Source: Bacteroidales bacterium (GTDB taxonomy: Bacteria; Bacteroidota; Bacteroidia; Bacteroidales; P3). Taken from it: a DNA stretch of 34,410 bases. The notes beneath the pieces are model-generated. The model did no database searches. It had not been told where the DNA came from and saw nothing but the letters and a program-made list of their open reading frames with translations. The stretch lies in assembly GCA_017454015.1 (NCBI GenBank), contig JAFTDW010000045.1, positions 1 to 34,410 on the forward strand, given 5' to 3'. Below are positions 1-31,448 of this stretch, in pieces. The position numbers and the translations under genes are program-made. How positions within the stretch are numbered: the stretch's first letter is position 1; every line of letters starts with the position of its first letter.

Positions 1-118
1 CGGCAGTGTAAGCAAGCTTCCACTGCTCTTGCTGAACGAAAACGTTCCATTTCATGAGTCGTTTTCTGGCTGCGGCAGTGTAAGCAAGCTTCCACTGCTC
101 TTGCTGAACGAAAACGTT
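1..118 (+). repeat. R1 interspersed element, tandem pair (B subtype), entering the window edge
   Basis: Two nearly identical units lie 72 bp apart, with their common word beginning at 1 and 73. Each unit holds the dyad CAGTG..AGCaaGCT..CACTG and is bounded by GTTTTC and GAAAAC words; the link between units reads CCATTTCATGAG. The 72-bp period is 24 codons, so the reading frame of the following NfeD-like gene stays open through both units. The same B unit recurs inverted at about 13772-13850. The first unit is cut by the window edge. Confidence 0.85.
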
Positions 119-1429
119 GCGCGCGCCGCAGGTGTTGCCGACACGTTGCGCAAAGTGGACGACTGCAAGGTGTACACCTTTAAGATTGAAGAGGAGATTG
201 CGCCACCTGCATCCCTTCGCGTTGAGAAGGCAATGGAAGAGGCAGAGACGCTGAAGGCAGATATCATAGTTGTGAAAATCAACACATTTGGCGGTACCCT
301 CGACGATGCCGACAAAATCCGCACAGCCTTTCTCGACAGCAAGATACCTATCTATGCCTTTATCGACAACAACGCCGCCTCGGCAGGAGCCCTCATAAGC
401 ATAGCTTGCGACAGCATCTATATGCACAGTGGGTCGAGCATCGGCGCCGCCACGGTTGTCGACCAGATGGGCACCGTGCAGCCCGACAAATACCAGAGCT
501 ATATGCGCTCGCTGATGCGTACCACTGCCGAGGCAAGAGGACGCCGATCCGACATCGCCGAGGCAATGGTCGACCCCGATATATTCGTGGCTGGCATATC
601 CGACACTGGCAAAGTGCTCACATTCACCACGACAGAGGCTATAAAGTACGGCTACTGCGAGGCCCAGTGCGAGGATATTGCCGAGGTGCTTGCCCATGCC
701 GGCATCAAGAAGTACACCATAGGCGAACAACGTTACAGCTTTATCGACAAGCTGATAGGCTTCCTCGTGAAACCCATAGTGAGCGGTTTGCTTATCATGC
801 TTATAATAGGCGGCATATACTTTGAGCTCCAGTCGCCAGGCATAGGATTTCCTTTGGCAATGGCTGTGGTTGGTGCTGCACTCTATTTCGCTCCGCTCTA
901 CCTCGAAGGGCTTGCCGCCAACTGGGAGATTCTGGTCTTTGTCGTTGGCGTAATACTGCTTGCGTTGGAGATTTTTGTGGTGCCCGGCTTTGGCGTTTGT
1001 GGCATCTCGGGTTTGGTGTGTATTGTAGGAGGCCTCACCCTCAGCCTTTTGGGTAACGACGGGTTCGATTTCAGCCATATACCTACCATTCACATAGGCG
1101 AGAGTGTTGCCCTTGTGGTGGTGGCCCATACCATAGCGTTGCCGCTCGTTATATGGCTCGGCAAGCTGCTCTTCGAGAGTCAGCTTTTCGGTGGCTTGGC
1201 CCTCAACACCGAGCAGTTGGCCACAGAGGGCTACACCGTGGCCGATGCAGGCACGGCATCGCTGATAGGTGCCGAAGGGGTGGCTGTCACCATACTGCGT
1301 CCGGCCGGCAAAGTTGAGGTAGGAGGGAAGTATTACGACGCTGTGGCTTCGCTTAGTTACATTGATAAGGGCGCGCGCATACGCGTGACGGGCTACGAGA
1401 ACGGCAGCCTGAAAGTAAATCTTATTTAG
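2..1429 (+). CDS. NfeD-family membrane serine protease (ClpP-class), 5' end outside the window
   Basis: Membrane-anchored protease of the long NfeD (NfeD1b) type: an N-terminal ClpP/crotonase-fold domain, membrane helices and a C-terminal OB-fold. Counting from the TTG at 29, the protease domain spans about residues 45-230. A nucleophile serine lies in AASAGA (S118), and the probable catalytic lysine is K154 in QPDK, matching the Ser/Lys dyad known from archaeal homologues. Hydrophobic helices fill about 250-350, and the OB-fold runs from about 405 to the end. No signal peptide or in-frame ATG precedes the protease domain. The frame is open to the window edge through two R1 units that encode a 24-residue tandem repeat ([15 protein letters not shown]..), so the true start is probably upstream. 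These proteins act in membrane-protein quality control, often beside stomatins, but no stomatin gene is visible here. Confidence 0.85.
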   Translation, partial: GSVSKLPLLLLNENVPFHESFSGCGSVSKLPLLLLNENVARAAGVADTLRKVDDCKVYTFKIEEEIAPPASLRVEKAMEEAETLKADIIVVKINTFGGTLDDADKIRTAFLDSKIPIYAFIDNNAASAGALISIACDSIYMHSGSSIGAATVVDQMGTVQPDKYQSYMRSLMRTTAEARGRRSDIAEAMVDPDIFVAGISDTGKVLTFTTTEAIKYGYCEAQCEDIAEVLAHAGIKKYTIGEQRYSFIDKLIGFLVKPIVSGLLIMLIIGGIYFELQSPGIGFPLAMAVVGAALYFAPLYLEGLAANWEILVFVVGVILLALEIFVVPGFGVCGISGLVCIVGGLTLSLLGNDGFDFSHIPTIHIGESVALVVVAHTIALPLVIWLGKLLFESQLFGGLALNTEQLATEGYTVADAGTASLIGAEGVAVTILRPAGKVEVGGKYYDAVASLSYIDKGARIRVTGYENGSLKVNLI

Positions 1430-3336: not shown

Positions 3337-3347
3337 TGAATATTATA

Positions 3348-3485
3348 GTTGCTCGCTGTCCGTGTTTTTATTTCATAGGTGCTCATGACCTCAGTTGCTC
3401 GCTATCCATGTTTTTATTTCTATTTGTGCTCGCAGCCTTCGGCAGCTCACTGTCCATATTTTTAATTTCATAGGTGTTCGCTGTC
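3348..3485 (-). repeat. R3 element, three tandem inverted copies
   Basis: Copies at about 3348-3390, 3394-3437 and 3441-3485 read, on the plus strand, CGCTGTCC..TTTTTATTTCATAGGTGCTCATGACC with drift. They are the reverse complement of the pair at 1561-1652. The array begins 11 bp past the ABC exporter stop. Confidence 0.75.
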
Positions 3486-3727: not shown

Positions 3728-6076
3728 ATGACAAAAAATTTAGTGATAGTTGAGTCACCGGCCAAGGCCAAGACCATCGAAAAATTCCTCGGCAAGGACT
3801 ATTCCGTCATGTCCAGTTACGGACATATCCGCGACCTTGCCAAGAAAGAAATGAGTATCAACGTAGACAACAACTACGAACCCGAGTACCAAATTTCGGA
3901 TGACAAGCGCAAACTTGTTGCCGACTTGCAGAAAGCTGTGAAAGGCAGCGATGTCGTATGGCTCGCCTCCGATGAAGACCGCGAAGGAGAAGCCATAGCA
4001 TGGCACCTTCAGGAAACTCTTAACCTCAAAGGCAAAGAGGTTCACCGCATCGTGTTCAATGAAATTACCAAGACGGCCATACTCCATGCCATCGAAAACC
4101 CGCGCGACGTCGACATGCACCTTGTCGACGCCCAGCAGGCTCGTCGCGTACTCGACCGTCTGGTCGGCTACGAGATAAGCCCCATCCTTTGGTCCAAAAT
4201 CAAACCCGCCTTGAGTGCCGGCCGTGTCCAGAGCGTGGCAGTCCGCCTCATCGTGGAGCGCGAAGAGGAGGTCCAGAATTTTGAGCGCCAGAGCTACTTC
4301 CGCCTTACCGCCAGCTTCGCGGTACCGTCGGAAAATGCCGAGAAATCCCTCGTCACCGAACTCTCGCGCCGCTTCGACACCAAGGACGAGGCCGAGCAGT
4401 TCCTGCGCAAGCTCACCGGCAAGAAGTTCACCGTAAACAAGGTCGACACCAAGCCGGTGCACCGCACGCCGGCCCCGCCATTCACCACCTCCACACTCCA
4501 GCAGGACGCAGGACGCAAACTCGGCTTCAGTGTGGCTCGCACCATGCAGATAGCACAGCAACTCTACGAGAGCGGATATATCACCTACATGCGTACCGAC
4601 TCGGTCAACCTGAGTGACTATGCCCTCGGCATGACCGCCGACACGGTCAAGAGCCTCTATGGCGAGCGCTTCCTCAAACAGCGCCGTTACACCACCAAGA
4701 CCAAAGGCGCGCAAGAGGCACACGAGGCCATCCGCCCCACCAACATGGCCAACACCACCATCAATGCCGACACTTCGCAAAAACGCCTCTACGACCTTAT
4801 CTGGAAACGCACACTCGCCTCGCAGATGAGTGACGCTGAACTCGAAAAGACCACCATAGAAATCGCCATAGAGGGCGAACAGGAACACTTCGCCTGCACC
4901 GGTGAGCAGATGCTCTTCGAAGGCTTCTTGAAGGTCTACATGGAATCGGTCGACGACGAAGAGCCGTCGCCCGAGTCGCCAGAGAATATACTGCCAGCCA
5001 TCGACGAAGGCGCAACGCTAACGCTGCAAACCGCCGAGGCCGCCCAGCATTACACCCAGCACCAGCCGCGCTACTCCGAGGCAAGCCTCGTGAAAAAACT
5101 CGAAGACCTCGGCATTGGCCGTCCCTCAACCTACGCGCCCACTATCAGCACCATACTCAAACGCGAATATGTCATCAAAGAAGACCACGAGCCGGAAACA
5201 GTGGAATGCATAGTGCTTACCCTCGACAAAAGCCTCGGCGTCAAAGTCTCCACGCGCAACGAGAAATACGGAGCCGAGAAAGGCAAGCTGGTGCCTACAG
5301 ACATCGGCACCGTGGTCAACAAGTTCCTTCTGGAACATTTTGACGAAATACTCGACTATAACTTCACCGCCACCGTTGAAAAAGACTTCGACGAGATAGC
5401 CACCGGCAAGAAAGAATGGCGCAAAGTTATCGACGGCTTCTACCAACCCTTCCACCGCAACATCCTCTCCACCCAGCAGAACAGCCGCCGCACCAGCGGC
5501 CAGCGTCTGCTCGGCACCGACCCCAAAAGCGGCAAGAACGTCTACGCCAAGATAGGCCGTTACGGCACCCTTGTCCAGGTGGGCGACACCAACAGCGACG
5601 AGAAGCCCCGCTTCGCAAGCATGAAGAAAGGTCAAAGCATTGACTCTATAACACTCGAAGAAGCTATGAACCTCTTTGAACTGCCTCGCACCGTGGGCAA
5701 GTTCGAAGACAAAGACGTGGTGGTCTCCGTCGGTCGCTTCGGACCCTATGTGCGCCACGGCGACAAGTTCTACTCCCTCAGCAAAGCCGACGACCCCTAC
5801 GAGATAACCCTCGACCGCTGCATCGCCATCATCAAGGTGAAACGCGTATCCGAAGCCGAGAAAGCCAAACTCAAAGACCTCTATCCTCACACCATAGGCG
5901 AATACGATGCAGGCACCATCACCAGCAACATAGGTCGCTACGGTCCATACATCACCTATAACGGCGAAAACTTCCGTCTGCCCAAAAACTTCGACCCCCT
6001 CAAGATAACCCTCGACCAAGCAATCGATGTGGTCAAGTCGTCACTGGAGAAAAAATCCAAGAGCAAGAAAAAATAA
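3728..6076 (+). CDS. topA: DNA topoisomerase I (type IA)
   Basis: Relaxes negatively supercoiled DNA by transient single-strand breakage through a 5'-phosphotyrosine link. The Toprim domain opens with LVIVESPAKAKTIEKFLG (invariant Glu at residue 9) and carries the acidic motif SDEDREGE near residue 81. The catalytic tyrosine is Y287 in ITYMRTDS. The SAGRVQS and PFTTSTLQQ motifs of the family are present. The C-terminal region has no zinc-finger cysteines; instead it has repeated GRYG/GRFGPYV modules (around 598, 675 and 735) and a lysine-rich end. At 782 residues it is the normal size for Bacteroidota. The ATG start follows an AT-rich leader with a recognisable promoter and looks secure. Monocistronic; an R1 repeat pair follows the stop. 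Confidence 0.97.
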   Translation: MTKNLVIVESPAKAKTIEKFLGKDYSVMSSYGHIRDLAKKEMSINVDNNYEPEYQISDDKRKLVADLQKAVKGSDVVWLASDEDREGEAIAWHLQETLNLKGKEVHRIVFNEITKTAILHAIENPRDVDMHLVDAQQARRVLDRLVGYEISPILWSKIKPALSAGRVQSVAVRLIVEREEEVQNFERQSYFRLTASFAVPSENAEKSLVTELSRRFDTKDEAEQFLRKLTGKKFTVNKVDTKPVHRTPAPPFTTSTLQQDAGRKLGFSVARTMQIAQQLYESGYITYMRTDSVNLSDYALGMTADTVKSLYGERFLKQRRYTTKTKGAQEAHEAIRPTNMANTTINADTSQKRLYDLIWKRTLASQMSDAELEKTTIEIAIEGEQEHFACTGEQMLFEGFLKVYMESVDDEEPSPESPENILPAIDEGATLTLQTAEAAQHYTQHQPRYSEASLVKKLEDLGIGRPSTYAPTISTILKREYVIKEDHEPETVECIVLTLDKSLGVKVSTRNEKYGAEKGKLVPTDIGTVVNKFLLEHFDEILDYNFTATVEKDFDEIATGKKEWRKVIDGFYQPFHRNILSTQQNSRRTSGQRLLGTDPKSGKNVYAKIGRYGTLVQVGDTNSDEKPRFASMKKGQSIDSITLEEAMNLFELPRTVGKFEDKDVVVSVGRFGPYVRHGDKFYSLSKADDPYEITLDRCIAIIKVKRVSEAEKAKLKDLYPHTIGEYDAGTITSNIGRYGPYITYNGENFRLPKNFDPLKITLDQAIDVVKSSLEKKSKSKKK

Positions 6077-6079
6077 CAT

Positions 6080-6247
6080 GTTCCATTTCATGAGTCGTTT
6101 TCTCGCCTCGGCATAGTGCAAACACTGCGTGATTCGCCCTCTGCGCTCGGCTTATCGAAAACGTTCCATTTCATGAGTCGTTTTCTGGCCGCGGCATAGT
6201 GCAAGCACTGCGTGATTCGCCCTCTGCGCTCGGCTTATCGAAAACGT
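6080..6247 (+). repeat. R1 interspersed element, tandem pair (A subtype)
   Basis: Two units lie 83 bp apart, with their TCGTTTTCT words at 6095 and 6178. Each carries the dyad word GCAAACAC..GTG and ends CGAAAACGT, with the link GTTCCATTTCATGAG as at 1-118. The pair starts 3 bp after the topA stop and runs into the upstream part of the TPR gene. Confidence 0.85.
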
Positions 6248-6303
6248 GCCTGATCCCTCAGCCCATCCCACCTCAAACACCTCACTCTCCATCCAGCCAC
6301 ACC

Positions 6304-13310: not shown

Positions 13311-13868
13311 ATGACTCAAGCCATTAAAATAACAACCACGGTGCTCACGATGCTCGCGCTGATAACGCTCTCCACCGCATGCAAACGCGACTACGAGGAG
13401 TTCTACTTCGTCGGGCGTGTGGTAGGCGCCGAACTATGCTCGGCAAGAACCATGGGCTATATGATTGAGGTGGAGAAACCTGCTGGCATTGGCGACACCA
13501 TTACCGTGCCCGCCGGAGTTATGCGCAACGCTGTCATGGCTTACCGTTCACCACGCAAACTTGTCAAAGACCAACGCATCTATGGCGTGGGCTACCTCAC
13601 CGAGGACTTCGCCGCACTCAACTGTTTGGGAATGTATTACTACACACTCCCCGAAATGATACTCCTCTCCGTCGACGAAGACTCCAACGTTTTCGTTAAG
13701 CCGAGTGCAGAGGGCAAATCACGCAGTGTTTGCGCTATGCCGAGGCGAGAAAACGAGGTTGCGAAGAAACCAACGTTTTCGTTAAGCAAGAGCAGTGGAA
13801 GCTTGCTTACACTGCCGCGGCCAGAAAACGAGGGTTCGAAGAAACCAACAATAGTGCTCGCCAATTAA
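13311..13868 (+). CDS. Small lipoprotein with a repeat-encoded C-terminal tail
   Basis: 185 residues with a lipobox LSTAC (Cys about 24). Residues 1-125 look native ([23 protein letters not shown] and related phrases) and are unrecognised. From N126 onward the sequence is translated R1 repeat: an A unit, then a B unit, both inverted relative to the copies at 1-118 and 6080-6247. The repeat adds about 60 residues, including [18 protein letters not shown], before a stop at 13866-13868. The native gene probably ended near 13690, and the insertion replaced its stop. It may form a cluster with the preceding lipoprotein/barrel pair, 36 bp upstream. The function of the tail, if any, is unknown. Confidence 0.75.
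13686..13850 (-). repeat. R1 interspersed element pair (A then B subtype), inverted
   Basis: AACGTTTTCG words lie at 13686 and 13772, a spacing of 86 bp. The first unit is A-type (GCAAAtCACgcaGTGTTTGC dyad) and the second is B-type; both match the reverse complement of the copies at 6080-6247 and 1-118. The linker differs from the other copies (GGTTGCGAAGAAACC). Both the lipoprotein frame and the frame leading into der are open through it. Confidence 0.85.
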
Positions 13869-16558: not shown

Positions 16559-16592
16559 CCTATACAGCAGTGTACTAATAATATAATCCCCC

Positions 16593-16631
16593 ATAACCTT
16601 TCAACCTTATAACCTTATAACCCTTTCAACC
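16593..16631. repeat. AACCTTAT-like array before pyrI
   Basis: Tandem degenerate units (ATAACCTTTC, AACCTTAT twice, AACCCTTTC) end about 10 bp before the pyrI ATG. This is the same kind of array as before the ABC exporter and the 17149 gene. Confidence 0.75.
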
Positions 16632-16640
16632 ATTCATCCC

Positions 16641-17102
16641 ATGGAAACAAAGAAAGAACTCACAGTCTCCGCCATCGAGAATGGCACCGTCATAGACCAT
16701 ATCCCCACCCAAGCCCTTTTCCAGGTCATACATATTCTGGGGCTCGAAGAATATAAAGAAGAGGTACTCATTGGCAACAACCTCGACAGCAAGAAACTCG
16801 AACACAAAGGCATAATCAAAATCAAAAACAAACACTTCACCAAGGACGAGATAAGCCGCATAGCCCTTGTGGCACCCTATGCCACCATCATCAACATCAA
16901 GGACTATACCGTCGTGGAGAAATTCCAGACCGAGGTGCCGAGCCACATAGAGCGTTTTGTTAAATGCGCCAACCCCAAGTGCATAACCAACGCCGAGAAA
17001 GTGCCAACCTCATTCGACGTGGTCGACAAAGTCAACCTCAAACTAAAATGCCATTACTGCGAGAAATTCACCACCCAGGAAACCCTTGCCTTCATCAAAT
17101 AA
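16641..17102 (+). CDS. pyrI: Aspartate carbamoyltransferase regulatory chain
   Basis: 153-residue allosteric subunit that binds nucleotides and bridges catalytic trimers. The N-terminal allosteric domain has IENGTVIDHIPTQALF, and the C-terminal zinc domain carries four cysteines in the expected pattern (KCANPKC, then KCHYC). It pairs with pyrB immediately upstream. The array at 16593-16631 sits where initiation would be controlled, so it might set the pyrB:pyrI ratio; that is inference. Confidence 0.96.
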   Translation: METKKELTVSAIENGTVIDHIPTQALFQVIHILGLEEYKEEVLIGNNLDSKKLEHKGIIKIKNKHFTKDEISRIALVAPYATIINIKDYTVVEKFQTEVPSHIERFVKCANPKCITNAEKVPTSFDVVDKVNLKLKCHYCEKFTTQETLAFIK

Positions 17103-17138
17103 CCACAAAACCTTATAACCCTATAACCTTGTAAACTT
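17101..17138. repeat. AACCTTAT-like array before the 17149 membrane gene
   Basis: Units AAAACCTTATAACCCTATAACC and close variants lie between the pyrI stop and the ATG at 17149. This is the third array of its kind adjacent to a start codon in the window. Confidence 0.7.
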
Positions 17139-17148
17139 ATTGACACAA

Positions 17149-18078: not shown

Positions 18079-18122
18079 GGTTATTCGCTATCCGTGTTTT
18101 TATTTCATAGGTGCTCATGGCC
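18079..18122 (-). repeat. R3 element, single inverted copy
   Basis: GGTTATTCGCTATCC, then TTTTTATTTCATAGGTGC and TCATGGCC: nearly the full 44-bp element, in the same orientation as at 3348. Its right end overlaps the start of an R4 unit. Confidence 0.75.
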
Positions 18123-18160
18123 TAAGCAATTGAGAGTTAGCCTCTCCGAGGCTATTTTTT
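18119..18160 (+). repeat. R4 unit with terminator-like hairpin
   Basis: GGCCTAAGCAATTGAGAG (18119-18136) is followed by stem TAGCCTC, loop TCC, GAGGCTA (18138-18154) and six T residues. The stem differs from that at 17741 but pairs fully. Confidence 0.65.
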
Positions 18161-19035: not shown

Positions 19036-21882
19036 ATGGAAACTGCCTCGAAATACGATCCCAAGCTGGTGGAGGAAAAATGGTATTCCTACTGGCTGGA
19101 GAAGAAAATATTCCACTCGGAACCCGACAACCGCAAGCCCTACACTGTGGTGATACCGCCTCCCAACGTCACCGGTGTGCTGCACATGGGTCACATGCTC
19201 AACAACACCATACAAGACGTGCTGGTGCGTCGCGCACGCATGATGGGACGCAACGCCTGCTGGGTGCCGGGCACCGACCATGCAAGCATAGCCACCGAGG
19301 CCAAGGTCGTCAACATGCTCAAAGAGAAAGGTATCGACAAGCGCGACATTGGACGCGACGAGTTTATGAAACATGCGTGGCAGTGGAAAGAGGAGCATGG
19401 CGGCATGATACTTAAACAGCTGCGCAAGCTCGGCGCCAGCTGTGACTGGGACCGCACGGCTTTCACCATGGACGATGTACGCTACGAGAGCGTCATAAAA
19501 GTGTTCTGCGACCTCTATCGTAAAGGTCTCATATACCGCGGAGTGCGTATGGTTAACTGGGACCCCAAGGCACTTACCGCCGTGAGCGACGAGGAGGTGA
19601 TATACAAAGAGAGCCATTCCAAACTTTTTTACCTGCGCTACTATGTAGAGGGTATGACAGCCGCCGACATCCCCGTGGTAGAGGATGTGGTGAGCGGCCT
19701 TAAGGTCGACGAGGCTGGTAAGGTGTATATCGTTGTGGCAACAACCCGTCCCGAGACCATACTCGGCGACACCGCCGTGTGCGTCAACCCTAACGACCTG
19801 CGCTACAAAGGCCTCGCCGGTCACCGCGTAGTGGTCCCCGGCGTGGGACGCGCCGTGAGAATCATCGAGGACGAGTATGTAGAGATGGATTTCGGTACCG
19901 GTGCGCTCAAGGTCACTCCGGCACACGACATCAACGACTACAACCTCGGCATGAAGTACGGTCTTGAGAGCATCGACATCTTCAACGACAACGGCACCCT
20001 CAACGCCGAGGGCGGCAAATACGAAGGTCTGGACCGTTTTGTGTGCCGCAAGCAGATAATGAAAGACCTCGAGGAAGCCGCCCTTGTGGAGAAGGTGGAG
20101 GACTACACCAACAAGGTGGGCCATAGTGAGCGCACTGACGCCGTCATAGAGCCCAAGCTCAGCGCTCAGTGGTTCCTCAAGATGGAGCAGATAGCCAAGA
20201 AGGCCCTCGAAGTGGTGGAGGACGGACAGATACAGTTCCACCCCGACAAGTTCAGGAACACCTACCGCCATTGGCTTGAGAACATCAAGGACTGGTGCAT
20301 CAGCCGCCAGCTGTGGTGGGGTCAGCGCATACCGGCCTATTATGTTGAGATAGAGGGCAGGAGAGAGGTCGTAGTGGCCGAGAACCTCAACCTCGCCTAT
20401 CAAGAGGCAACAAAACGTTGGCCCAACGCTGCCCTTAAGCCGGAAGACCTCATTCAGGACGAGGATGTCCTCGACACATGGTTCAGCTCCTGGCTCTGGC
20501 CTATAAGCCTCTTCGACGGCATACGCAACCCCGACAACGACGAGATAAAGTACTACTATCCAACCGACGACCTTGTCACAGCTCCCGACATCATCTTCTT
20601 CTGGGTGGCACGCATGATTATGGCCGGCGAGGAGTACCGCGGCGAGGTGCCGTTCCGTCATGTCTATTTCACCGGCATTGTGCGCGACAAGCTGGGCCGC
20701 AAAATGAGCAAGAGCCTTGGCAACAGCCCCGACCCCATAGAACTCATGGAACGCTACGGCACCGACGGTGTGCGTATGGGCATGCTCCTCACAGCTCCCG
20801 CAGGCAACGACCTGCCTTTCGACGAGAGTATCTGCGAGCAAGGCCGCAATTTCGCCAACAAGATATGGAACGCCATGCGTCTTGTAAAGGGGTGGACAGT
20901 CTCTGACGAGGACAACCAAACCTTCGACAACGGCGTGAGCGTCGAGTGGATGGAGCAACGTATGGCTTGCCAACTCGAAGAGATAGAACGCTGCTTTGCC
21001 GACTACCGACTCAGCGAAGCCCTCATGGCTACCTACAAACTGGTGTGGGACGACTTCTGCTCCTGGTATCTTGAGATGGTCAAACCCGCCTTTGGCAAAC
21101 CTATCGACCGCGAGACCTACGAGGCTACCATTCATATCTTTGAACGTCTGATGTGCATGCTGCACCCTTTCATGCCGTTTGTCACAGAGGAAATATGGCA
21201 CCAGCTGCGCCAACGCCCCGAAGGCGCCACCATAATGCTGCAACACATGCCGCACAGCGTCTTCTACGACGAGCGCGCCTTGCTCGGCATGACGCTGGCC
21301 CAAGAGGTGATTGCCGGTGTGCGCAACATACGCAAGACCTCGGGCTTGGGACCCAAAGAGGTGCTCGACGTGTATATGCACAACGTTTCGCATAGTGAGA
21401 GCAATGTGGGCTCGAACACATTGCCGAACCAAAGAAACGTCATGAGCGAAGCGAACAACGTTTCGCATAGTGAGAGCAATGTGGGCTCGAACACAGGAAA
21501 CGTCATGAACGAAGCGAGTAAAGGTGGCGATGAGGTTACGGCAATCAACCGCTACGCCGGCATTGTCAAGAAGTTGGGCTTTGTAGAGAAGTTCGAGTAC
21601 GCGGAGCAGAAGCCCGAAGGCGCCAAGACCTTCATGGTCGGCACCATGGAATGCTGCGTGCCTGTCACGTTGAACATCGACAAGGATGCCGAGCTGCAGA
21701 AACTGGAAGCCGATCTCAAACACCAGGAAGGATTCCTTGCCGGTGTGCTCAAGAAACTTGGCAACGAGAAGTTTGTCAGCAGCGCCCCTGCACAGGTGGT
21801 GGAGCTTGAGCGTAAGAAGAAAAGCGACGCCGAGGCAAAGATAGCGGCCATCAAAGCACAAATTAGCGCACTGCAAGCCTGA
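19036..21882 (+). CDS. valS: Valyl-tRNA synthetase with an in-frame repeat insertion
   Basis: Class I aminoacyl-tRNA synthetase charging tRNA-Val. The HIGH motif is HMGH (50-53) within [13 protein letters not shown], and KMSKS lies at 556-560. The editing domain carries TTRPET, and the anticodon-binding domain and C-terminal coiled coil ([15 protein letters not shown] to the end) are present. Of 948 residues, 783-828 are two tandem R2 units ([13 protein letters not shown]..), 25 and 21 residues long, inserted between the strand ending LDVYM and the segment [14 protein letters not shown]. The second unit lacks four codons, keeping frame. Removing the insert leaves about 900 residues, near the usual size. 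The insertion lies after the catalytic core, so function is probably kept. It overlaps folC by one base. Confidence 0.96.
21382..21519 (+). repeat. R2 interspersed element, two tandem units inside valS
   Basis: Units start with AACGTTTCGCATAGTGAGAG at 21382 and 21457, a spacing of 75 bp (25 codons). The second unit is 63 bp, 12 bp shorter. Each contains the hairpin GAGCaatgtggGCTC, and a GAAACG/CGTTTC inverted pair joins the units. The words AACGTTT and CATGAG are shared with R1, suggesting a related element. Confidence 0.85.
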
Positions 21883-23263: not shown

Positions 23264-23755
23264 CTATTTTCTTGTTGTAGAGGAGCCTTTGTAGTGACCG
23301 TTTGCGTCGTAATACTTAGTTGTTGTTGTGTTGCCGATGGTGGTAGTCTTTTCGGAGCCTTGCTTGTGGCCGTCGGTGCCGTAGTAGGTGGTGCTGCTGG
23401 TATTGCCGCTAGTGGTGGTTTTTGCGGTGCCTTGCTTATGGCCGTCGGTGCCGTAGTAGGTGGTATTGCTTGTGTTGCCCGAAGTGGTGGTGGTTGAACG
23501 GCCAGCCTGCTGGCTGTTGGTGCCGTAGCAGGTTGTACTGCTTGTGTTGCCCGAGGTGGTGGTGGTCGAGCGGCCAGTCTGCTGGCTGTTGGTGCCGTAG
23601 TAGGTGGTGTTGCTACGGTTGCCCGAGGTGGTGGTGGTCGAGCGGCCTGTCTGTTGGCTGTTGCTGCCGCGGTAGGTGGAATTGACCTGTGCCATCAAAG
23701 CGGTGGAAAAGGCCATCGCTGCCAAAAGAACGAGTGTTTTCTTTGTTTTCATCAT
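23264..23755 (-). CDS. Small secreted protein of 24-residue tandem repeats
   Basis: 163 residues: signal peptide (LVLLAAMAFSTALMAQ), then about five and a half tandem 24-residue units. An early unit reads YYGTNSQQTGRSTTTTSGN; later units change to YYGTDGHKQG; the last is truncated at YYDANGHYKGSS. Each unit combines an aromatic-Gly-Thr turn with a run of threonines and a Ser-Gly-Asn turn, so a secreted, low-complexity, repetitive beta structure is likely. The DNA period is 72 bp. Units 1-3 and 4-5 form two subtypes, pointing to recent duplications. It has its own promoter and stands at the end of a minus-strand group. No function is assigned; a surface or matrix role is speculation. Confidence 0.8.
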   Translation of the reverse strand: MMKTKKTLVLLAAMAFSTALMAQVNSTYRGSNSQQTGRSTTTTSGNRSNTTYYGTNSQQTGRSTTTTSGNTSSTTCYGTNSQQAGRSTTTTSGNTSNTTYYGTDGHKQGTAKTTTSGNTSSTTYYGTDGHKQGSEKTTTIGNTTTTKYYDANGHYKGSSTTRK

Positions 23756-24566: not shown

Positions 24567-26075
24567 CTATGCCGGGTTCAATCGCCTTATTCCACGAATA
24601 AAAGACGGCTTGTGATTATAATAATAGTAACTACCAGGGCGACACCACCCAAACCCATAAGCATAATAAGGAGCTTCAAAATCGTAGTAATAAGTTGTTC
24701 CACTGGATCCGGTTGCTGGTGTCCAATAATAGCCTGAGGGTAGAAAAGTACATCCTGCAGACTCCATTAAAAACCAGTCGTATGCCGTGTATATATTGTC
24801 TGAGTATCCCTCCCTGTTGTCGTATTGTGGATAGCCTTGGCCTTGTATGAATGTTGGACTCGTTACGTTGTTCGGATGGGTATAACCGATAGGAAAGAAA
24901 ATTATGCCGGATACACCATCCACAGTTGCCCAAATCCAACTATTATCATTCTTAATCATATCTAATTCAGTATTTGTCGGTAAATACCATGGGTGTTGAT
25001 AAGAGGGTAATACCCAAAATTTTTCTAATCTATAATTAGTAGTATTAATAGGATAAGTTTCATAATGACAAAATCTGTCAAACCACCCACTATAAGTAGT
25101 ATACGAGGCATATGTAAAATGGCAGTTTCCATTATAGTCGTCTAAAGGAATCTTGTCATATTGGCGGGCTGCATATCGTGTGGTACCTGTTGATGGCTGG
25201 AGTTGATAGTTTCCTGGGGCAAAAATACAAGTTAAATCATTAGGGTATTGTCTATATTTTTGTCTATATGCTATGAATGATAGGTCGTTTAAGGTTATGG
25301 TAGTTATTTTGCTGCGTTCTATGATGATGTTGCTGGTTGCGCTTTTCAAACAACGGGTGCCATCCGATGTAGTAATTAGTATTCGAAACTCACTATAATT
25401 ACCCGCAGGAAGGTACATGTAGAAATCATTCGAGATGTCAATACCATCGGTATTACAACAGGCCAATGTAGTTACATTATTTCCTGTCGGGGTAGATATT
25501 CTAACCGATTTTTCGCGACCCGATATTGAGGTAGATCCGTTTGTGTTGCAGTTGGTGGCCACGGCAATACGGATGACTTTTACCGACGACGTGGCCGACA
25601 GCCTGAACCGCACCACGCCGCATAGGTGATAGAACTTCAGGTTCATGTCGTCGCTCACGGCATACATGGGCAACCCATGCAGCGAGCCGTCGGGGGTATA
25701 CTGCACAGCGGGTAGTGTTACTTGGTTGGCGCTTGTGCGAATGTCGGCAGGATAAACCACGGTATATGGCCCTGACGCCAGGTCTGCGCCAGAACTCTTG
25801 ATATACTCTCCGTTGGCAGTGCCTACACACGATGACGCAATTTCGTATACCGCTGTATTGGATGAGGCGTCGCGTACGCTTATCTGGTCGTTGGCCGACC
25901 ACAGCAATCTACCACCGCTGTATACAACCTTGCCGTTCTCAGTGGTGGGCTCCACTGTGGCCTTGAAAACCGAGGTGTCGACCTCCTTGCCGCAACCCGC
26001 CAAAAGTGCTGCTGCCGCCGCAAAAACTATCATAGATTTGCTCATGACGGCGTGAAATGTTGCTTTTTGTTTCAT
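24567..26075 (-). CDS. Fimbrillin-like lipoprotein with a FISUMP-type C-terminal domain
   Basis: 502 residues from ATG 26075. Signal and lipobox AALLAGC precede an acceptor Cys near residue 28. The N-terminal half follows the Bacteroidales fimbrillin-like pattern: VFKATVE, LLWSANDQISV, then ASGPYTVVYPADI and VVRFRLS. The C-terminal ~200 residues are aromatic, with WYLPTNTELDMI, GYYWTPATGSSGTTYYYDF and a closing IRGIRRL, the order seen in Fibrobacter-type major paralogous (FISUMP) domains. A surface fimbrial or adhesive role is likely. Base composition changes within the gene: the 5' ~500 bp are GC-rich like the neighbours, the 3' ~1 kb is distinctly AT-rich, suggesting a domain acquired by recombination. 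An alternative start at 26045 gives an 18-residue signal. Confidence 0.8.
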   Translation of the reverse strand: MKQKATFHAVMSKSMIVFAAAAALLAGCGKEVDTSVFKATVEPTTENGKVVYSGGRLLWSANDQISVRDASSNTAVYEIASSCVGTANGEYIKSSGADLASGPYTVVYPADIRTSANQVTLPAVQYTPDGSLHGLPMYAVSDDMNLKFYHLCGVVRFRLSATSSVKVIRIAVATNCNTNGSTSISGREKSVRISTPTGNNVTTLACCNTDGIDISNDFYMYLPAGNYSEFRILITTSDGTRCLKSATSNIIIERSKITTITLNDLSFIAYRQKYRQYPNDLTCIFAPGNYQLQPSTGTTRYAARQYDKIPLDDYNGNCHFTYASYTTYSGWFDRFCHYETYPINTTNYRLEKFWVLPSYQHPWYLPTNTELDMIKNDNSWIWATVDGVSGIIFFPIGYTHPNNVTSPTFIQGQGYPQYDNREGYSDNIYTAYDWFLMESAGCTFLPSGYYWTPATGSSGTTYYYDFEAPYYAYGFGWCRPGSYYYYNHKPSFIRGIRRLNPA

Positions 26076-26149
26076 TTGTGTGTTTATTAAATGTATGTAA
26101 ATTATATGTTTGTACAAAAATCCCAAGAATTTCCGTTTGCGCGAAACTA

Positions 26150-30537: not shown

Positions 30538-31365
30538 ATGATTGAAATCAAAGATTTATTGTTTGCCTATGGCAAAAAAAGTGTTTTCGACAACATAAGC
30601 CTGCGGCTTGAGAGCGGAGCCGTCTATGGGTTGCTTGGCGAGAACGGGGTGGGGAAGACCACGCTGCTCAAGATTGTCAGTGGGCTGCTGCGCCCCACGT
30701 TGGGTTGCTGCCGCGTCGACGGCGAAGAGTGTTTCGACCGTGCCCCCTCTTTCTTGCAGTCGGTGTTTCTTTTGCCCGACGAGGTGCCGCTGCCCGACAA
30801 CGCCACGCCCGATGCCTTTTTCAACGACCTGGCCCCGTTTTATCCCAAGCAGAGCGGCGAAATGCTCCGCAATATGGCCAAAGAGCTGCAGGTGGACACC
30901 TCGGTAAAGTTCAACGTGATGAGCTTCGGCCAGCAGAAGAAGGCATTGTTGGCTTGTGCCATGGCACTGAACACCGACTATCTGCTGCTCGACGAGCCCA
31001 CCAACGGGCTGGACATCCCCTCCAAGGCCGATTTCCGTCGCCTGCTTAGCGACCGTATAGGACAGGGGCAGACTATAGTCATATCCACCCATCAGGTGAA
31101 GGATGTGGAGAACCTTATCGACCCCATCATCATCATCTCCAACAACAGCGTGCTGCTCAACGCCAGTGTGGAGCGCATCACCGAGAAGCTCTATTTTGAG
31201 TATGGCGGCGAGCAACACCCCGAGGCACTCTACAGCGAGATGATGCCCGGCGGATACCTCAACGTGCTGGTCAACAACGGCATGGGCGAGAGCCAGATAA
31301 GTATTGAGGGCCTCTTCAACGCCGTGCTTCGCAACGCCGCGACCATTAAGAACATTTTCGATTAA
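30538..31365 (+). CDS. ABC transporter ATP-binding protein (YtrB-like)
   Basis: 275-residue ATPase. Walker A GENGVGKTT (34-42), Q-loop region around SVFLLPDEV, signature MSFGQQKK (a divergent LSGGQ), Walker B YLLLDEPTNGLD and switch ISTHQ. The divergent signature and short C-terminal domain resemble GntR-linked exporters of the YtrB/bacitracin-sensor type. It is followed by a membrane protein and a GntR regulator, a known arrangement for cell-envelope-stress or antibiotic-responsive ABC systems. The start at 30538 follows an A-rich leader. An R1 element separates it from the membrane gene. Confidence 0.9.
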   Translation: MIEIKDLLFAYGKKSVFDNISLRLESGAVYGLLGENGVGKTTLLKIVSGLLRPTLGCCRVDGEECFDRAPSFLQSVFLLPDEVPLPDNATPDAFFNDLAPFYPKQSGEMLRNMAKELQVDTSVKFNVMSFGQQKKALLACAMALNTDYLLLDEPTNGLDIPSKADFRRLLSDRIGQGQTIVISTHQVKDVENLIDPIIIISNNSVLLNASVERITEKLYFEYGGEQHPEALYSEMMPGGYLNVLVNNGMGESQISIEGLFNAVLRNAATIKNIFD

Positions 31366-31367
31366 CT

Positions 31368-31448
31368 GAGCCCGGAGTGCAAATCACAAAGTGTTTGCAC
31401 TCCGACGAGGCAAGAAAACGATGGTTTCGAAGAAAACAACCTGTTTTG
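31368..31448 (-). repeat. R1 interspersed element, single A-type unit in an operon gap
   Basis: A strong dyad GGAGTGCAAA/TTTGCACTCC (31374-31383 with 31394-31403), with CAC/GTG inside, is followed by AAGAAAACGATGGTTTCGAAG. It matches the A-type unit at 13686. It lies between the ATPase and membrane genes and is the least degraded dyad of the family. Confidence 0.75.

Follow-up and report, generated by a model that had tools for sequence, protein, structure and literature searches.

The stretch of DNA analyzed here (34,410 nucleotides, nt; hereafter, the window) belongs to a Bacteroidales bacterium genome that is 94% complete (hereafter, the focal genome); all genomes compared in this study are draft assemblies. 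An open reading frame (ORF) at 19036-21882 on the forward strand encodes a full-length valine--tRNA ligase (ValS; 948 amino acids, aa; NCBIfam NF004349, 1093.6 bits), which was the single ValS of the focal genome among the matches listed. Within valS, two repeat units lie head-to-tail and are read in frame as residues 783-828 (46 residues). More specifically, unit 1 (21382-21456, forward strand; 75 nt, 25 codons) has an intact hairpin and matched the covariance model of the element in the window search (91.2 bits, 1.1e-25), and unit 2 (21457-21519, forward strand; 63 nt, 21 codons) scored 39.6 bits in the genome-wide model search and was not among the matches of the window search. A first-pass annotation, made from the DNA letters, had placed the pair at 21382-21519, and its unit sizes and reading frame proved exact to the base. 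An exact 41-nt sequence recurs within the pair at a spacing of 75 nt, and 12 nt of unit 1 (about TTGCCGAACCAA), or four codons, are missing from unit 2, so that the frame is kept, just as that annotation had read it; the deletion takes out the 3' arm of the inner hairpin. The insert is preceded by a CAC codon (21379-21381) and followed by an AAA codon (21520-21522, forward strand), giving an inferred empty site of CAC-AAA-GGT (H-K-G) with insertion at AA. This site agrees with some homologues, which read ..YI-KG.. where the focal ValS reads ..YMH[46 residues]KGG... The alignment of the focal ValS to ValRS chain 1gax stops at residue 783.

As the first-pass annotation had suggested, ValS proteins of relatives were aligned and the genome was searched for the 75-bp unit. 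The MAFFT alignment contained 30 rows, namely the focal ValS, 28 relatives spanning the site, and one relative (L034) that ends before it. Residues 783-828 were missing in all 28 site-spanning relatives, and likewise in 6 of 6 further congeners reaching the site (a seventh stretch, from G041, stops short). Combined, 34/34 aligned relatives, four of which (L037-L040) belong to other families of the order, lacked these residues; the segment is thus not ordinary ValS sequence. The repeat, in turn, was common elsewhere in the focal genome. The 75-nt unit was found again at C10, C53, and C9 with 95-96% identity, and three base differences from these copies are common to both ValS units. Because both units differ alike from the other copies, they more likely stem from a single insertion and a later tandem duplication in valS than from two insertion events. 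As sister copies, the units thus probably became a pair by duplication, as would also be expected of ordinary lineage-specific ValS sequence or of a purely local tandem duplication with no mobility involved. That explanation is nevertheless scarcely credible in view of the copies elsewhere in the genome, which contradict it: unrelated lipoprotein genes contain the unit at 95-96% identity, and the family to which it belongs numbers about a hundred copies. Two paralogues of the filled lipoproteins (C10, C53, and C9) lack exactly the 25 residues, and one of these lies in the window (24567-26126, reverse strand), where it reads ..TENG-KVV.. without an element.

Further repeats in the window, at 1-121, 6079-6249, 13685-13846, and 31350-31427, are members of the family that includes the ValS units. 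The first comprises a partial copy at the contig end (1-28) and a copy of the R1 subtype (45-121, reverse strand), which matched the model and overlaps the beginning of ORF 29-1429, an ORF in the opposite orientation. The second consists of two copies of the long inner-stem subtype (6079-6249, reverse strand; period 83 nt) just after ORF 3728-6076. Both were detected by repeat finding, and 6079-6168 was also a model match in the window search; neither is in the genome-wide model list. In the C-terminal part of ORF 13311-13868, a copy of the long subtype (13685-13764, forward strand) was found as a repeat, with no model match at E ≤ 1, and is followed by an R1-subtype copy (13769-13846, forward strand) found both as a repeat and by the model; together, the two copies code for roughly the last 60 residues of this ORF. 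A diverged copy (31350-31427, forward strand), likewise found as a repeat with no model match at E ≤ 1, overlaps the stop codon of ORF 30538-31365 (ABC-type by reading) and supplies its last residues and stop codon, so that the protein ends NIFD. Outside the window, a rubredoxin-like ORF (by reading) in L122, near C43:2061, also takes its last residues and stop codon from the element, ending FNVA.

The ValS repeat represents one subtype within a structured repeat family. In the element, an outer stem of 7 bp begins near the second base and is followed by a conserved internal loop (approximately gcAAAG-YGAG against CGAGCCAAAG) and an inner stem (GCA...TGC) of variable sequence; the 3' tail measures some 10-16 nt and frequently contains GCGAAGC or ATGAAATGG. 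Among aligned copies, the stem sequences co-vary around the constant internal loop. In a 22-row MAFFT alignment, for which the structure was hand-written from those same sequences, 15 of 19 stem pairs had changed on both sides and 91.1% of cells were paired; on each of the five measures, all 500 shuffles fell short, and pairing dropped to 30-46% when partners were slid. The ValS deletion copy, L006 (diverged), L068 (truncated), L065 (a duplicate), and the window copies of R1 type were left out of this alignment. An 88-row alignment, which was itself fitted to the covariance model (88 matches, 78 of them distinct, from 69 loci), showed compensatory changes in 17/19 pairs, with 93.3% paired, 0/500 shuffles reaching these values, and slid partners pairing in 27-39%. 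Folds of single copies were uneven. Unit 1 as RNA in the valS sense was more stable than all 200 dinucleotide shuffles (z -3.63), and its opposite strand gave z -2.70; the z values of three congener copies (-1.70, -2.37, and -0.41) indicate that a copy does not always fold better than its shuffles. G-T exceeded A-C in the stems (21 versus 6 in the MAFFT alignment; 44 versus 9 in the model-fitted alignment), a wobble asymmetry that would favor one strand as the folded molecule, with the model fit leaning the 44-versus-9 count the same way.

Covariation of both stems, and an excess of G-T as expected if one strand folds, would equally be seen if the element were a conserved structured RNA or regulatory hairpin (e.g., a REP-like 3'-end stabilizer or an attenuator) that is kept for its function, the genic copies being accidental. 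We consider such a role unlikely. In the window, no Rfam family scored above threshold, the sole match at E ≤ 1 being an IRES (17.3 bits versus a gathering score of 40). Moreover, copies of the family occur in both orientations with respect to genes, as tandem arrays, and within enzymes.

The distribution of the element bears on the same question. Similarity searches (BLAST-type) with the repeat units revealed further copies in the focal genome, and the 75-nt unit matched 15 of 120 genomes of the genus, the focal one included. The covariance model gave 114 matches in the focal genome at E ≤ 1 and 93 at E ≤ 1e-4; the 114 are a lower bound, as 150 of 999 candidates were scored and the window search added 6079-6168. 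Across the genus, 108 of 119 genomes (the focal one included) matched at E ≤ 0.001 with 39 candidates scored per genome, and the remaining 11 had no model match at this threshold. With 16 candidates scored and E ≤ 1e-4, matches were obtained in 39/295 genomes of a sample of the order, again including the focal one, and in 0/3 genomes from a different genus within the family. Copy numbers differed widely among congeners, from none in some to about 90 to 120 (E ≤ 1e-4) in two, with 119 matches in G085. Such unevenness, with 11 of 119 genomes lacking a match at E ≤ 0.001, argues against a functional RNA. In G087, ten identical copies lie on different contigs, but within a larger common repeat. 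A core-pattern search of a named genome collection returned 53 stretches, 52 of which are Bacteroidales, Bacteroidaceae, or Bacteroidetes records; the remaining one, a Phycisphaeraceae record, is perhaps a chance match. A ruminant (deer, sheep, yak, or buffalo) is named in 25 of the 53 record titles, and 19 more carry RUG codes, which we take to denote rumen genomes. Contigs begin or end inside element copies (window 1-28; C9:59763-59830; C18:9217-9244), so the repeats probably break the assembly and the copy numbers are underestimates; on the practical side, they probably interrupt metagenome assemblies of this group.

We then placed 107 of the 114 focal matches in fetched stretches or in the window, dropping seven partial or opposite-strand duplicates, and assessed their surroundings by a hexamer-based coding score, for which long ORFs of the focal-genome stretches served as the training set. 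Coding flanks were present on both sides in an open frame for 23 copies, upstream only for 35, and on neither side for 49. The 35 copies lying 3' of coding sequence are a point in favor of 3'-end regulatory hairpins. On reading, 6 of the 23 were dropped as tandem arrays or doubtful ORFs (C39:8189, C39:8270, C18:2813, C18:8972, C18:9044, and C48:41648), leaving 17/107 copies as genic (by reading), in 16 ORFs. Their hosts are valS (2 copies), two lipoproteins, IleS, UDP-glucose dehydrogenase (UGDH), a RecB-like helicase, a CcsB/ResB-like protein, an acyltransferase, MurC/Mpl-like and RluA/RluD-like proteins, an RND transporter, GH92, one unknown protein, and three proteins that we take to be SprT-like, RluB-like, and DedA-like. 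Ten host proteins were family-scanned; two of these had no NCBIfam match at 1e-10, and the SprT-like one had no Pfam match either. Twelve of the 17 genic copies are read in the AAC-GTT frame, three in other same-strand frames, and two on the opposite strand. For the two lipoproteins, the coding scorer picked the opposite strand, the true frame being on the element strand; the C53 lipoprotein ORF encodes 595 aa, whereas that at C10 encodes only 113 aa and is perhaps a gene remnant.

Four of the host proteins were compared with solved structures, all of which lack the added residues. At the insertion site, UGDH has 29 unaligned residues against none in the chain, and the RluD-like protein has 26 against 1; both fit closely with the about 25-27 residues that the element encodes. 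IleS (43 against 5) and GH92 (48 against 19) hold further differences. Genes take up most of a bacterial genome, yet only 17/107 copies are genic, which points to avoidance or loss of genic copies. Genic insertion is not general, being rarer in other congeners than in the focal genome: none of the 28 top-scoring copies checked in G085 (of 119 matches) was internal to an ORF, and 2 of 21 copies were so in other congeners (21 of 40 stretches). Both counts used the coding score trained on the focal genome, and G087 contributed 8 near-identical copies to the 21. Element-bearing sequences in G087 and G139 that we presumed to be pyruvate:ferredoxin oxidoreductase-like were not counted as intact genes, their reading frames being short or broken; the G139 copy is one of the two flagged as internal in congeners and also one of the six site pairs described below.

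Element length was 66-76 nt in most measured copies, 83-87 nt in the long-stem subtype, and 122 nt once, in a copy carrying a second repeat. It was divisible by three in 49 of 58 focal copies with measurable ends (8/8 of those flagged as internal and 41/50 of the others), a count in which the copies are mutually non-independent and lengths of 76, 86, and 122 nt also occur. The AAC frame was open in 86% of 104 focal copies versus 42% in shuffles, and in 84% of the 81 not flagged as internal versus 41%; among 51 non-redundant copies of congeners, the values were 65% and 40%, bearing in mind that the focal copies are mostly near-identical and that shuffling destroys the stems. In the congener copies, four other frames were also more open than in shuffles, and one was less open. 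Selection for coding on the non-genic copies was considered and dropped, the open-frame excess being suggestive only.

An all-against-all BLAST of the loci yielded six pairs of filled and empty sites, with flank identities of 73 to 100%. The inserts measured 69 nt in GCGAA[...GTTAA]GACG (empty, GCGAAGACG; pair 1), GCCGAA[...CATAA]AGAAA (empty, GCCGAAAGAAA; pair 2), GCAA[...GGTAA]GGAG (empty, GCAAGGAG; pair 3), GCAA[...GCTAA]TGGGG (empty, GCAATGGGG; pair 4), and GCCAA[...GGTAA]CATTGC (empty, GCCAACATAGC or GCTAACATTGC; pair 6), and 72 nt in AATCGAA[...GCTAA]AAGCG (empty, AATCTAAAAGCG; pair 5). The sixth insertion lies in frame in a G139 ORF labelled transposase-like and is absent in two close congeners. 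In all six pairs, insertion was at AA with AA flanking both sides, and the adjacent base had changed in one pair; the flanking AA would fit a duplication of 2 bp as well as bases that are simply shared. In tandem arrays, the units have AAC in common; such arrays could reflect either entry of a copy at the AA of one already present or duplication. As pairs 1, 2, 4, and 5 lie within larger dispersed repeats, their filled and empty sites may be paralogous, and for most pairs a gain would look the same as a loss. The filled and empty sites nevertheless suggest that the element moves, which is a further argument against a hairpin kept in place for regulation. At L267 (G139:C3, about 215-300), the insertion is accompanied by a direct repeat of 8 nt (AACATTGC), which agrees with the outer stem of the element as well, by chance or by target matching. 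The idea that the outer stem is copied from the target, raised by this match (AACATTGC on both sides), was dropped, as the other five pairs showed no such match.

Short length, high copy number, and AA at both ends would also suit a miniature inverted-repeat transposable element (MITE), i.e., a deletion derivative of a transposon that is moved in trans by a DDE transposase, with the arms of the outer stem as terminal inverted repeats. Larger composite repeats carrying the element, present in G087 and in the G021/G122 group, are consistent with such an origin and imply that part of its spread was as a passenger. We regard a MITE as rather unlikely, however, because some 10-16 nt separate the 3' arm of the outer stem from the 3' end, so that this arm is not terminal, and because this stem varies with compensation among copies, unlike the fixed repeats to which a transposase binds; moreover, no autonomous parent was noticed in a non-systematic look through the sequences. 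REP/RAYT or IS200/IS605-type movement, in which a single-stranded hairpin is mobilized by a Y1 transposase, would in turn be expected to act on a folded unit whose stems vary around a conserved internal loop, as seen here. A Y1 match (PF01797) was present in 6 of 9 element-rich genomes (the focal genome among the nine), but also in 2 of 4 genomes without element matches, and Y1 did not correlate with element abundance in these 13 genomes; no Y1 match was found in the focal genome, G014, or G073, all of which are element-rich. Mobilization by Y1 is accordingly very improbable. Likewise, the serine resolvase (PF00239), which had no match in the focal genome, did not track element abundance in the 13 genomes, with matches in 3/9 element-rich genomes and 2/4 genomes without element matches.

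The family is, in our judgment, very probably a non-autonomous mobile hairpin element of Bacteroidales that behaves like the Rickettsia palindromic elements (RPEs), and is shorter and differently built. An element of usually 66-76 nt would fold into a hairpin and insert at AA, leaving AA on either side. It would be moved in trans by an enzyme, as RNA or single-stranded DNA (ssDNA). Given a length that is a multiple of three in most measured copies and an open AAC-GTT frame, a genic copy in suitable phase would add a polar loop of 23-25 residues; frame-keeping addition was seen in several genes, and the added loop is presumably harmless. In valS, a copy would have entered CAC-AAA-GGT near the C-terminus and been duplicated in tandem, after which the second unit would have lost 12 nt. 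Selection may remove most genic insertions, the rest persisting as tolerated loops. The phenomenon is thus more general than the single valS case, the repeats forming a single structured family that is apparently mobile and for the most part frame-neutral. That it constitutes a new class of mobile element is a possibility we take seriously without favoring it. Such a class would be distributed patchily over Bacteroidales and move as a folded single strand (RNA or ssDNA), keeping its internal loop and two stems while the stems drift with compensation; its frame-neutral insertion at AA would give loops of 23-25 residues even in essential enzymes.

RPEs are palindromic repeats of 105-146 or about 150 bp that lie in frame within protein genes, with 19 or 44 such cases depending on the source and target duplication marked as unknown, according to the available portions of PMC2229807, PMC10969869, and PMC3767692. 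In the same portions (including Table 1 of PMC3767692), their hosts include tRNA synthetases and a recB-family gene, and the text available from PMC2229807 reports that a gmk product bearing an RPE is translated and active. The first-pass annotation had likened the ValS insert to RPEs. The likeness in behavior holds, insofar as those excerpts describe RPEs: both are small hairpin repeats that occur between genes and in frame in unrelated conserved genes, tRNA synthetases included. The likeness stops short of membership among the RPEs: the Bacteroidales element is mostly 66-76 nt rather than about 100-150 bp, sits in another phylum (the host is not one of the Rickettsiales, and the named element-carrying records are Bacteroidales), and has a structure of its own. 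That structure is a hairpin interrupted by an internal loop, in which both stems covary and the 3' tail is unpaired, and it forms less than a full palindrome. In addition, the element forms tandem arrays and inserts at AA, and 5 of its 17 genic copies are read in other frames or on the opposite strand.

The element resembles MITEs, including BrickBuilt of Porphyromonas gingivalis, in being short, many-copy, and non-autonomous; P. gingivalis is in the same order as the focal genome. In contrast to BrickBuilt, which is strictly intergenic according to the available text of a MITE review (PMC10969869), the Bacteroidales element also occurs in genes and lacks a 3' terminal inverted repeat. REP/RAYT systems share with it folded repeat units that are often near gene ends, but REPs are 20-40 bp in length (PMC3733652, as far as its available text goes), and the focal genome has no Y1 match. 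The coding palindromes of nematomorph mitochondria are similar in that inverted repeats are translated inside protein genes; as the accessible part of PMC6649704 has it, these are perfect inverted repeats with arms as long as 142 bp, located in a mitochondrial genome and distinct from the Rickettsia elements. The first-pass annotation knew of no described counterpart in Bacteroidota. For Bacteroidales, an open-access literature search, whose coverage mostly excludes subscription journals, returned no genic palindromic element of this order, nor did the available portion of PMC12306157 contain anything on one. Selfish palindromes spreading in frame through protein genes are known above all from Rickettsia and Wolbachia, and uncultured gut Bacteroidales would be a second case, in which covarying stems, filled and empty sites, and uneven congeners would make movement, tolerance in essential enzymes, and new protein loops testable.

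Other repeats were also evident. A second repeat of about 47 nt (AGGTCATGAGCACC...GCGAATAACC) occurs in the window at 1560-1652, 3347-3480, and 18079-18126, and in the focal genome it also lies within element copies at C18:4003 and C58:36555; because it sits inside such copies, it is probably mobile as well. Arrays with a period of eight bases (AACCTTAT type) are located, for the most part between ORFs, at 1486-1555, 16580-16641, and 17094-17147 of the window. Finally, a small protein of 24-residue repeats is encoded by a 72-nt tandem repeat at 23264-23755 on the reverse strand.
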